DNA from: Medakamo hakoo
Taxonomy: Eukaryota; Chlorophyta; Trebouxiophyceae; Coccomyxaceae
Direction: 5' to 3'
DNA length: 64,000 nt
Assembly (NCBI GenBank): GCA_026636295.1
Contig: CP089459.1
Coordinates: 558,001 to 622,000, forward strand
The notes under the pieces: model-generated
Told to the model about the DNA's origin: nothing
What the model saw: only the letters and a program-made list of their open reading frames with translations
Database searches by the model: none
Position numbers and translations under genes: made by a program
In this document: positions 34,375 through 39,469 of the stretch, one piece after another
Layout of the letters: each line of letters starts with the position of its first letter
Numbering within the stretch: position 1 is the first letter of the stretch

Positions 34375-34787
34375 TCACCGGTCGAGCTTGTTGCCCTGGA
34401 TGCGGCTGCGCGCGTCCACGGCCGCTCTCTTACAGTGGAACAGGGTCGCCCTCAGGGCCGCGCACTCAGGGGACGCGCCGGCGCAGTGAGTCACGGACTT
34501 GCCTTCGACCTGTTTTGTGTATGGATGGGAGTGGGGTGTGGGGGGTCGAAAATGAATTGGTCGACAAAAAAGATTCGTGCGGCGGCGGACGGCCCTACGT
34601 TCCGCGCGCTCCTACGCCAGATCCAACGCTGACTGTCCGCGCCACACGGCTGAGGGCGCAGAGTCCTCAAACAAACCTGCATGCACGGGGACCGGCGCAG
34701 GCACCGCACAAACTCGGCCAGCACACCCGCGCACGCGGCGTGGTCGTCGGTCGACGCTGGCGGCGATGTGGGTGGTGCGTCAGGCAT
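34375..34787 (-). CDS. COA5: COA5/PET191 cytochrome c oxidase assembly factor (twin CX9C)
   Basis: Two short exons, 34677-34787 and 34375-34509, join in phase 0 across a 167-nt intron (donor GTTTGT, acceptor CAG) to give 81 residues. The protein keeps the COA5 Cys pattern: C-x9-C (CAGVLAEFVRC), C-x5-C (CLRRSPC), C-x10-C spanning the splice (MQVEGKSVTHC, human VVQEGKSPRQC), and a last C-x9-C ending FHCKRAAVDARSR. The intermembrane-space protein is imported by the Mia40 route and is needed for complex IV assembly. It is too short and too split to be found by an ORF-length scan. Its stop is 10 nt before the ISE2 start; divergent from the DUF1517 gene. Confidence 0.9.
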
Positions 34788-34978
34788 GAAGGCGCCCGCA
34801 GCAGGGCATGCACAGGGAGCGCAGTGTCTCTCCCGCGCGCTGTTTGTGTCTCGAGTAGACGGGACGGAGAAAAAAAGGTGTGCGCTCTCCGATGCGCGCC
34901 CGGTCGCCACACCTCTGTCCTCGTTTTTGCAAGACGCAAAACTCTCTCTTCTCCCGCCCCGAACAACCAACGACAACG
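34788..34978. promoter_or_regulatory. Shared divergent promoter region (COA5-ISE2 / DUF1517)
   Basis: 191 bp between opposed ATGs. CT-rich leader before the DUF1517 ATG; no TATA recognised. If COA5 and ISE2 share a transcript, this spacer drives both. Confidence 0.45.
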
Positions 34979-36722
34979 ATGTCCGCCCGGGCCCTGACCA
35001 TGACTCCGGCTGCAGTAGCCACCCCCCGCCGGGCTGGACCTGCCCTGCCGGCGCGCGGCGTGGCAACGCCCGCGCTGGCTCCGTTTGCGGTCGCGCCTCG
35101 TCGCCCAATTGCCGTCGTCGCGGCCTCCCCCAAGCGCTCCGGCTCGGACCTCGCCTCCCTGGCGGCCGACGTGGAGAACACGCAGCCGACTACCCCGGCG
35201 CCGGCGGCGAAGCCCAGCCTGACGGACCGGGCGGCGGCCGCGGCCCGCGTCACGGTCGCGAGTGCGCTGGCCCTCGCCCTGATGGCCACGCCCGCCCTCG
35301 CCGCGGGCAGCGGCGGCCGCGTCGGCGGCGCGGGCGGCTTCTCCGCGGCGCGGAGCATGCCCTCGTACAGCGCGCCGCGCAGCAGCTACGGCGGCGGCGG
35401 CGGGGCGCGGTTCGACAGGTGAGAGAGATGGTGGAATCGGCGGTGAGGTCGGGAAGGTCGAGCGCACCTGCCGCGCCGGCCCCCCCCTCTCATCGTCGGC
35501 CGACCTCCCCCCATCCCCACGCCTGCCTCCGTCCCCTTCTTCCTCACGCGCCTCCGTCCCTCCACGCCTTTCCACTCCCTCTCACGCCCTCCTTCCATCC
35601 ACACACACACAAACACAAACACAGCCGCACCGCCCCGCCCTTGCGCGTCGCCCCGCGCTCCCTCAACGGCGTCGGCCTGGGCTGGGGCCTGGTGCCGTTT
35701 GGCGGGTATGGGTTTGGGTACGGCTACCCGGCGCCCGTCGTCGTGGGCGGCGGCGGTGGCGGCGGACTGGGCGACCTGCTCATCTTTGGCCTGTTCGCGG
35801 CCGTCGCCGTCTCCATCATCTCCTCCTTCCTCAACAACCGGGAGGGTGAGGATGAGAGCGGCGCGGGCGCCGGCTACGGCCGCGTGACGGTCGCCAAGCT
35901 GCAGGTCGGGCTGTTGGGGAGCGCGCGTTCCCTGCAGCGCGACCTCGACCGCATCGCTGGCAAAGCCGACACGTCCAGCCCGTCGGGGTTGCACTTCGTC
36001 CTCCAAGGTAAGGTTGAGAGAGAGAGAGAGGGACGAGACCAGCATGACATGCGTGACATGCCTGCCCCACACGGCGCGAATGTTTGAGGCGGCGGCGGGT
36101 TTTTCTTTTCGTCCAGTCCCGCCGCCGTTTAGGATTCGAACGCGCCCAGACCGAAACCGCGGCCGCGCCAAGTTTTCGCCCGGGGAGCGCTCTTCCAACC
36201 TTCCTGGGACTCAGTGCCGGCCCCTCAAAAACCCCTCGTCTCACACACCCTCATCCAAACACACACAAACACACACACTCAGAAACCGTGCTCGCCCTGC
36301 TGCGCAACCCGGAGTACGCGATCTACGGCTCGTCCGCCACGCGCAACACGCGGTCGCTGGCTGCAGGCGAGGCCGCGTTCAATGAAGCCTCGCTGGAAGA
36401 ACGCGGGAAGATGGCGGAGGAAACGCTCGTCAACGTGGGCGGGCGGTCCCGCGCCGGCGCGTACTCCAAGGGCGGCAGCAGCGGCAACGCGCCCGACGAC
36501 GACGAGCTGGTCGTCGTCACGGTCCTGGTCGCCGCGCGCGGCGGCCTGTCGCTGCCCAAAGTCACGTCGGCGTCGGAACTGCGCACTGCGCTCAACCGCC
36601 TGGGCGCCGTCCCCGCGGACGACGTCCTGGCCGTCGAGGTGCTGTGGACGCCGCAGGACCCGCGGGACAAGTACTTCCGGAGCGATGCCCTGGCGGACTA
36701 CCCGACGCTCAACGTGCTCTGA
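34979..36722 (+). CDS. DUF1517 chloroplast membrane protein (FLAP1-like)
   Basis: Exons 34979-35418, 35625-36007 and 36283-36722 give 420 residues. A plastid transit peptide is followed by a hydrophobic stretch with an ATPALAA site near residue 103, like a thylakoid-transfer or membrane signal. Then come a Gly/Ser/Tyr-rich loop, a membrane helix (GDLLIFGLFAAVAVSIISSF) and the DUF1517 domain: VTVAKLQVGLLGSARSLQRD, ETVLALLRNPEYAIYGSS, FNEASLEERGKMAEETLVN, DDELVVVTVLVAARGG, DVLAVEVLWTPQDPRDKY. Arabidopsis FLAP1, a member, helps acclimation to fluctuating light. Both introns end in CA-rich tracts directly before the acceptor. The phases (2 and 1) are consistent with the conserved frame. Confidence 0.88.
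35601..35624. repeat. CA-rich tract at DUF1517 intron 1 acceptor
   Basis: A CA/CAAA tract runs into the CAG acceptor at 35624. Confidence 0.8.
36240..36282. repeat. CA-rich tract at DUF1517 intron 2 acceptor
   Basis: CA repeat with short interruptions runs into the CAG acceptor at 36282. Confidence 0.8.
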
Positions 36723-37005: not shown

Positions 37006-37887
37006 TCATGGCCGCCACGTCACGACCGTGTTGACCAGCCCCGCCGTCGCCAGGCTGGCGCCCCCGTCCTCCAAAGGCGCGGGAGGGAAGCCGGCGACCA
37101 AGGACCCGCCCTTGGACGCGCCGTGGGCCAGGGCGAACGCGGCCACGTCTTTGACCGTGTGCCGGGCCGGGTTGAAGCGGCCGACGACCTTGCCGCCGTT
37201 TTGCAAGCGGATGGTGACCAGGCAGGTCGGGGCGGCGTCTTCCAAGCCAGGGGCGTCGATGGCGGCCGCGGCGGGGGCGGGCGCGGGCGCGGTCGCGGTC
37301 GCGGTTGCGCTCGACCCGCCGCCGCCACCACCACCCAGCGTCCGGCCCGTCCCCGCAAACGACGCGGGTTTCGCAATCCGCGCTAGGTTGGACACCAGGG
37401 TCTCTAGCCCACCCGGGTCCGCGCCCGTTAAGCGCCCCGCTTCCTTGCCCGAAGCGTACGCGACAAACGTCGGCATGCCCGACACGCCCGCACCCGCCGC
37501 GATGGCCTGGTGGGCGTCCACGTCCACTTTGACAAACGTTAGGGCCGGGTACTTTTTGGACAGGGACTCGAAGATGGGGGCCATCATGCGGCAGGGGCCA
37601 CTGGTGTGTGGTGTGTGGATGGACGGGAGGGGGCGTGAGAGAGAGAGAGAGAAAGGGGGGGGTGGATCCCACCGTCCGTCGGCGCGGGACGGCGCCAGGC
37701 CCTGGTGGCCCAGGGCGAAGAGAGGGGAAGGCGGGCGGAAAGAACACGCCGCGCTGTTGCGCCGCGGGGTCGCGCGCTCTCGCTTTTCGCCAACGCACCA
37801 CCACGACGCCGTAAAGTCGACCACCAGGCCGGTGCTTGACGCCAGCAGCCCGCGGTATTCCGCCTCGCTAGAAATCTCGCGGACCAT
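37006..37887 (-). CDS. Thioredoxin-UBX fusion protein
   Basis: Exon 1 37799-37887 and exon 2 37006-37600 (phase 2) give 227 residues. Residues 1-105 are a full thioredoxin: [20 protein letters not shown] with intact WCGPC after splicing, [20 protein letters not shown], and MPTFVAY with the cis-Pro. A Gly/Ala/Thr linker (about 110-150) leads to a UBX domain: [57 protein letters not shown]. UBX domains bind Cdc48/p97; the FPP in the loop stands where others have FPR or FPxK. No targeting peptide, so cytosolic or nuclear. UAS-UBX proteins have a thioredoxin-like fold without the CxxC, so an active-site thioredoxin in this position is unusual. The intron splits the first active-site Cys codon. 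Confidence 0.85.
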   Translation of the reverse strand: [293 protein letters not shown]

Positions 37888-38029: not shown

Positions 38030-39469
38030 ATGCGCACGCTCGCGCCCACGACGCCCGGCCCCATCGTGCGCGGCAACGCGCCGCGCAGAGCGTCAGCCGT
38101 CGCGCGGGCCGCGCCGCGCGAGCGGCAGGGTGCGTTCTGCTGTGCGCAAAACCTTGTGCACTCCTCGCGTGCCGACGAATTCTATCCGCCGTCTCTCTCA
38201 CCATCTTCCGCGAAAAAAAAAACACAGGCGCGGCCCTCGTCAAGACCGCCCTGCCCCTGGCGACTCTGCTAGCTTCTTCTCCAGCGAAAGCGGACGAAGT
38301 GGACAGCGTGGTCGATGGCACGATCCAGGTCGTCAAGGTGAAAGAAAAAGGGAGCGAGCGGAGAGCAGCGCCCCCCCTCTGTGTGTCTCGGCCCGCGCCA
38401 CCCTCACCCACTCCACCTCCTCCACCCCAACACCCAGGCCGCGGGCGCGGGCGCCAAAGCCGCCGTCGGCGCCGTCGCCGCCGCTGCGGGTGCCTTACAC
38501 GACATCTACGCCCGGTTTGCCCCCGTCGCCAAGGACACCGCCGCGGCCCTCCAACCCGCCGTCTCTGGCGTCGCCAAGCTCGTCGGCGCGGCGGCCGACC
38601 CGCTCCTGAAGGCGGCGGGCCCGGCCCTGCGCGCCTCCACGGGCGCGGCCGAAGATTTCTTGGCGTCCCAAGGCTTGAACGCGCGCGTCATCGTGGACGG
38701 CGCCAAGTCCGCGGGCAAGGCCGCCGACGCCGCGATCAACACGGCCGTGCCCGCCGCCGAGAAGGCCGCGGCCGCCGCCGCGGCGGCCGGGCCCGTCGCC
38801 ATCGCCCAAGCCGCCGCGGGCCTGGCTGTCCTGTACGTGGCGGGCCCGCCCCTGGTGCGCGGCCTCTCCACGGCGGCGCGCGGCTACGCGGGCGACGTCT
38901 CCCCCGCCGCCGCCCTCGACGCCGTCTCGTCGGGGTCCGACGCCGTCCTCGTCGACATCCGCACGCCGCGCGAAAAAGAGTCGGCGGGCTTGCCCGACGT
39001 CCCCGCCGGCGGCCTGGCGGGCGGCGGCGGGCGGTACCTGGAAGTCGAGTACGCGGCGGTGGAGGACCGCCGGCTGCGCGGCGCGCTCCGCGACGCGGGC
39101 GCGGTCGAACGCCGGGTGACGGCCCTACAGATCGGCGCGCTCAAGCGCATTGGCAAGGGCACGCGCGTCCTGCTGTTGGACCGCAACGGCGGCGGCGGGG
39201 CCAAGGCCGTCGCGCGCGAGCTGCGCGGCCTGGGCTTTAAGAACGTGTTTGTCGTCAGCGGCGGCTTTGCCGGGTGGGCGGGGTCGAAGCTCAAGACGCG
39301 CCCGTCCTCGACGGTGTCGCGGGTGGACGTGCTGCCGGCCCTGCCATCGTTCGGGACGGGGACCGTGCGCAAGGTCGGGCCGGGCGGCGGTGGGAGCCAG
39401 CGCGTGATTGCGGGGGGCAAGCGGGCTGGCGGGTCCCAGCGCTACCTGCCGCCGCCGTCGCAGCGGTGA
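38030..39469 (+). CDS. CAS: Thylakoid calcium-sensing receptor homologue with rhodanese-like domain
   Basis: Exons 38030-38129, 38228-38337 and 38438-39469 give 413 residues. A transit peptide is followed by a hydrophobic ALPLATLLASSPAKA stretch. A long Ala-rich amphipathic region (about 75-185) precedes one membrane helix (AIAQAAAGLAVLYVAGPPLV, about 190-210). Then comes the rhodanese-like domain: RGYAGDVSPAAALDAV, AVLVDIRTPREKE, VTALQIGALKRIGKGTRVLL, GLGFKNVFVVSGGFAGW. The active-site Cys of true rhodaneses is absent (RVLLLDRNGGGG), as in plant CAS, so no sulfurtransferase activity is expected. In plants and Chlamydomonas CAS works in thylakoids in calcium-linked photoacclimation and state transitions. 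The basic C-tail with GSQR repeats resembles the phosphorylated stromal tail. Confidence 0.9.

Follow-up and report, generated by a model that had tools for sequence, protein, structure and literature searches.

Gene structure and splicing

The window, a stretch of 64,000 nucleotides from the genome of Medakamo hakoo, carries a two-exon gene on its minus strand (37006-37887) that encodes a thioredoxin domain followed by an SHP box and a UBX domain. Medakamo hakoo is an ultrasmall trebouxiophyte green alga, the genome of which is reported as 16 chromosomal contigs with 72.7% G+C (PMC9871001). The features of the gene, given by window position, are as follows:

37799-37887, minus strand: exon 1, 89 nt; ATG at 37887; residues 1-29 and the first two bases of the Cys30 codon
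37601-37798, minus strand: intron, 198 nt, GT-AG, phase 2; donor GTGCGT at 37798, acceptor CACCAG ending at 37601
37006-37600, minus strand: exon 2, 595 nt; CGPC to the stop codon (37006-37008) in one uninterrupted frame
37405-37866, minus strand (the range spans the intron): thioredoxin domain, PF00085, residues 8-95, profile positions 7-97 of 103
37336-37359, minus strand: SHP box FAGTGRTL, residues 111-118, an exact fit to F-x-G-x-G-x-x-h
37021-37236, minus strand: UBX domain, PF00789, residues 152-223, with a GFPP loop from residue 200

The codon for the first active-site cysteine (Cys30) is split by the intron, and predicted splicing and translation yield a product of 227 residues with FTASWCGPC and MPTF. 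An enumeration of splice sites, with donors at nucleotides 60-159 and acceptors up to nucleotide 419 from the ATG and introns of at least 40 nt, gave 156 GT/GC-AG pairs, of which 24 keep GPCRMMAP in a frame of more than 180 residues and exactly one of those 24 restores WCGPC. This is the same intron that had been chosen in the preliminary description of this DNA, whose coordinates and protein length also hold. The 3' end of the intron is pyrimidine-rich (80% of the last 60 nt) and, judged from the DNA sequence, the predicted splice at 37798/37601 is the most probable one.

The intron has a length of 3n and is free of stop codons, and its retention would produce an in-frame protein of 293 residues without CGPC. 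An intron that is open in frame could point to a gene in which it is often kept, or to a gene that is poorly expressed or marginal, an explanation that we regard as very improbable. Open frames of 66 codons are common (2003 of 3450 sampled) in this window, which is poor in stop codons, so that the open intron is unremarkable, while its GT-AG ends are canonical, its 3' end is rich in pyrimidines and its removal exactly rebuilds WCGPC.

Exon 2 encodes most of the thioredoxin, from CGPC on, together with the SHP box, the linker and the UBX. Since all but the first 29 residues come from this exon, the joining of thioredoxin and UBX is independent of splicing and of the gene model, and a mis-annotation is ruled out as the source of the fusion by the presence of these parts within a single exon of 595 nt. 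The divergent neighbour (window 38342-39466, plus strand) is a rhodanese-domain gene (29.4 bits) with an Ala-rich N-terminal part, and the neighbour on the other side (window 34654-36719, plus strand) carries DUF1517, spread over two or more exons (46.1 and 146.2 bits).

Thioredoxin domain

The claim that the gene encodes an active-site thioredoxin is supported. The Pfam scan assigned the domain to Thioredoxin (PF00085) with 84.1 bits (8e-24), and the motifs WCGPC, VVDF and MPTF are all intact, as in a redox-active thioredoxin; we take VVDF to carry the buried Asp and MPTF the cis-Pro of the fold. Among the best 60 of 291 matches to solved structures, a PDI-family protein and a reconstructed ancestral thioredoxin lead, and h-type plant and algal, yeast and animal cytosolic thioredoxins come next. 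From these matches, we infer that the domain is of the h-type or cytosolic type.

A family profile search found at least 31 thioredoxin-family exon matches in the genome. The closest of those listed is a stand-alone thioredoxin at C13:430327, which is 43% identical over residues 21-147 of the fusion, a stretch that passes the stop codon of the stand-alone gene. The thioredoxin domain is common to the fusion and the cytosolic/h-type thioredoxins, whereas the C-terminal SHP-UBX extension is the fusion's own. A 1996 paper by Sahrawy and co-workers reportedly relates intron position to thioredoxin descent. At C13:430327 the WCGPC lies inside one exon and intron position therefore gives no support for a descent of the fusion from this gene.

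Searching viral contigs with the whole protein recovered 100 encoding stretches, and all 80 of those listed match only residues 1-123, which comprise the thioredoxin and the start of the linker, with the UBX matched by none of the 80. Searches with the UBX by itself found no relative in viral contigs (0 of 13 and 0 of 16 stretches) or in prokaryote genomes (0 of 155), which is expected because UBX is a eukaryotic domain.

UBX domain and SHP box

The UBX-like C-terminus that had been proposed was borne out by the domain search, in which UBX (PF00789) scored 27.4 bits (3.8e-6), above the cut-off of 21; the same domain was recovered with 30 bits in profile searches of the whole genome (15,638,232 bases in 16 contigs). 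The UBX score of the fusion is modest. The genome-wide searches returned five UBX loci, which comprise the thioredoxin-UBX gene, a SEP-SHP-UBX gene on contig C4, a Josephin-UIM-UBX gene on C2 (L003), a UBX gene with a UAS-like stretch on C13 (L004) and an unclassified locus on C8. Among the matches listed, a thioredoxin match stands beside a UBX match only at the thioredoxin-UBX locus. In L003 (C2:194666-197902, minus strand) one open frame holds Josephin (115.1 bits), UIM (23 bits), FGGAGRRL and UBX (24.9 bits), and by its sequence this is an ataxin-3-like deubiquitinase, the tail of which is of the same type as that of the fusion. In L004 (C13:309365-312493) the UAS-like stretch lacks CxxC and was recognized by eye, with no Pfam domain call.

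Compared to solved structures, the C-terminal 84 residues of the fusion matched PUX5 (1.1e-8) and p47 (2.1e-6), and the seven PDB sequences found at E<=10 comprised a chain named CDC48A + PUX5, p47 chains and UBX domain-containing protein 2B. Local alignment to the fusion UBX gave z scores of about 21 for PUX5, p47 and p37 and of 14.5 for the alga's own p47-like UBX, with lower values for L005 (7.7), L003 (2.4) and the UAS-like L004 (0.7). On these scores, the fusion UBX is closest to that of PUX5/p47. In an alignment of five UBX sequences (the fusion, PUX5, p47, p37 and the alga's p47-like protein) 12 columns are invariant, including the Pro-Thr start, an Arg in strand 1, a Phe-Asn pair and the loop Pro. 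The loop sequence GMPP/GFPP has been described, from in-silico docking, as the motif through which Leishmania p47 and FAF2 dock (PMC7403338). The fusion has an extra cysteine, Cys156 (window 37222-37224), immediately ahead of UBX strand 1; at the aligned position, PUX5, p47 and p37 carry Thr.

An AlphaFold2 model of the UBX built from the single sequence was of low confidence (pLDDT 53.5, pTM 0.41), with elements in the order strand-strand-helix-strand-strand, and a Foldseek comparison of this model with the PDB returned 15 hits, none at E<=0.001 and none of them a UBX. Given the poor model and the lack of a convincing PDB match, the UBX fold, expected to be a beta-grasp, is assigned from the sequence profiles alone.

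Upstream of the UBX, FAGTGRTL fits F-x-G-x-G-x-x-h, the consensus of the SHP box that serves as the second CDC48-binding element of UBX proteins (PMC8181520, PMC7403338). On shuffling, FxGxGxx[LIVM] arose in 962 of 300000 versions of the 48-residue linker and in 2856 of 100000 versions of the whole protein, and the box on its own is weak evidence. Its support comes from position more than rarity, given these counts and the matching place of the box in relatives. The alga's SEP-SHP-UBX protein has FTGTARTLGG in the corresponding position (by eye), with one consensus Gly replaced by Ala, and the distance from the box to the UBX Arg is 50 residues in the fusion and 57 in that protein; in the Josephin-UBX protein FGGAGRRL lies 47 residues before the UBX Arg (by eye). 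The SHP box is placed as in p47. The preliminary description had been right about the UBX, about the intact active site of the thioredoxin and about its difference from UAS domains, and had overlooked the SHP box and the kinship of the UBX with PUX5 and p47.

Relation to known CDC48 cofactors and TXNL1

The architecture looks like that of p47/PUX5 with the UBA-SEP front swapped for a thioredoxin. The fusion has its nearest UBX relatives among the SEP-SHP-UBX CDC48 cofactors (PUX3, PUX4, PUX5 and p47/Shp1) and shares with them an SHP box upstream of the UBX (in the fusion at residues 111-118), whereas SEP and UBA are theirs and the fusion has the thioredoxin instead. The Pfam scan of the fusion detected no SEP domain, as present in p47 and PUX3-5, and no UBA or other ubiquitin-binding domain, so the fusion may not itself recruit ubiquitylated clients. 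The idea that the fusion is the alga's only p47-like protein is ruled out by the SEP-SHP-UBX gene on C4, which contains the single SEP match of the genome.

A thioredoxin fold, in the form of a UAS domain, occurs with a UBX in one protein in FAF1, FAF2, UBXN7, PUX7 and PUX10 (PMC12965308, PMC8181520). The fusion has both elements in common with these proteins, but UAS domains of UBX proteins are reported to be without CxxC (PMC8181520), in agreement with the earlier note of this difference, while WCGPC is intact in the fusion. With WCGPC present and a UBA absent, the fusion departs from the FAF/UBXN7 class, in which a CxxC-less thioredoxin fold is preceded by a UBA. A re-armed FAF/UBXD7 protein is made unlikely by the PDB matches to PUX5, p47 and 2B and by the existence of the separate UAS-like protein L004, the UBX of which is unlike that of the fusion (z 0.7), on comparisons that are few in number and include L005 (z 7.7), which is unclassed.

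In TXNL1, the PITH domain places a redox-active thioredoxin on the proteasome (PMC12700817), which makes the analogy with TXNL1 drawn in the preliminary description a sensible one. In both proteins a redox-active thioredoxin would be tethered to a protein-unfolding machine, with the tether of the fusion to CDC48 being predicted; the tail is PITH in TXNL1 and SHP-UBX, a predicted CDC48 dock, in the fusion, in which the Pfam scan found no PITH domain. The genome has three PITH matches at two places, L124 on C13 and L125 on C12, and both genes start at their own Met (by eye). None of the 31 listed thioredoxin matches occurs within 300 kb of either place and a six-frame CxxC scan of about 4 kb upstream of each, which misses an intron-split CxxC that the family search may still catch, revealed no thioredoxin by eye. 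A TXNL1-type thioredoxin-PITH fusion was not found at either of the two PITH places.

The thioredoxin fold could also act as a non-catalytic adaptor that merely binds clients or partners, with the active site as a retained passenger. The existence of UAS domains as thioredoxin-fold modules without CxxC in UBX proteins (PMC8181520) and the report that TXNL1 is also a redox-independent chaperone (PMC10570131) are in keeping with such a role. The catalytic motifs of the fusion are all intact, unlike those of UAS domains, and we consider a purely non-catalytic role improbable.

Proposed role at CDC48

Taken together, the domains suggest a cytosolic-type thioredoxin with a p47/PUX5-type SHP-UBX tail, a candidate redox-active CDC48 cofactor, to which we assign a probability of about 0.62. 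The predicted cofactor would probably reduce clients or the thiols of CDC48 itself. The genome has one match to the CDC48 N-domain, on C8, in an open frame that has two Walker A motifs and ends in DDDDLYN, and the N-domain stretch is identical to Arabidopsis CDC48A at 123 of 148 positions.

As a cofactor, the UBX would seat in the groove of the CDC48 N-domain and the SHP box on the Nc lobe. Some 8-15 residues separate the end of the thioredoxin fold from the SHP box and, with UBX and SHP both docked, this short gap would keep the thioredoxin close to the rim of the CDC48 hexamer, near the point of client entry. The literature is divided over simultaneous binding of SHP and UBX to a single N domain (PMC8181520), which makes two-point docking on one protomer uncertain. 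Once in place, Cys30 would attack a disulfide and Cys33 would resolve the mixed disulfide.

The most likely targets, by analogy, would be disulfide-linked or oxidised clients undergoing unfolding, an assignment that we rate at about even odds and with clients slightly favoured over the cysteines of CDC48. For TXNL1, the authors likewise consider substrate reduction more likely than reduction of proteasomal cysteines (PMC12700817). The same source reports that proteasomes can process unstructured chains with two or three disulfides between them, and a reductase therefore need not be required.

Alternatively, and as a target that the preliminary description did not weigh, the docked thioredoxin could keep the cysteines of CDC48 reduced, restoring cofactor binding and ATPase activity after oxidative stress, and would act chiefly on an N-domain cysteine in the UBX site (yeast Cys115) and the Walker A cysteine of D2 (human Cys522). 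The algal CDC48 has HQCPDVKYG, which aligns with CPDVKYG of human and Arabidopsis CDC48, and GPPGCGKT. We take the first to be the yeast Cys115 site, by residue numbering and a 10-residue offset between yeast and human, and the second to be the human Cys522 site, again by residue numbering. On this basis, the two redox-sensitive cysteines appear to be conserved in the alga. The same study of yeast from which the offset was taken places Cys115 in the UBX site, reports that it is reversibly oxidised in early stationary phase, links it to the binding of Shp1 and of antioxidants and finds that the association of Trx1-3 with Cdc48 rises in early stationary phase (PMC12137173). Oxidation of Cys522 in VCP, a residue absent from yeast, inactivates the ATPase, and the authors suggest its restoration by thioredoxin recovery (PMC3573100). 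A UBX seated in the groove would probably cover the cysteine there, however, so that the thioredoxin would have to act on neighbouring protomers, and free thioredoxins could also serve. We place such protection of CDC48 second after the reduction of clients, as plausible but not probable.

In the open-access literature, as far as its accessible text extends, no description was found of a CDC48 cofactor that incorporates a catalytically competent thioredoxin. Judged from that text, the fusion is a new arrangement of familiar parts, in which a thioredoxin that bears its active site has a docking tail of the p47 type, and a single protein brings together redox control of CDC48 and the cofactors of CDC48. 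The fusion suggests that disulfide reduction can be brought directly to CDC48. As a natural fusion, it points directly to a pairing of thioredoxin and CDC48, offers a small reagent (227 residues) and makes the coupling of disulfide reduction to CDC48 unfolding testable. More tentatively, and with the fusion known here from one genome, it may belong to a redox arm that serves CDC48 specifically, in the form of a thioredoxin-SHP-UBX family conserved in algae that would reduce clients or CDC48 cysteines at the mouth of the unfoldase and that would have been born by a swap of UBA-SEP for thioredoxin in a p47-type cofactor, in a lineage without a thioredoxin-PITH fusion; we think it somewhat more doubtful than probable that all of this holds.

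The thioredoxin of the predicted cofactor would be recharged by an NADPH-thioredoxin reductase. Nine matches to the TRX_reduct model, none above the model's cut-off, mark thioredoxin-reductase-like genes in the genome. On C6, a reductase-like match is followed by a thioredoxin match in a frame of the same length, and a second reductase-like match is also located on this contig.
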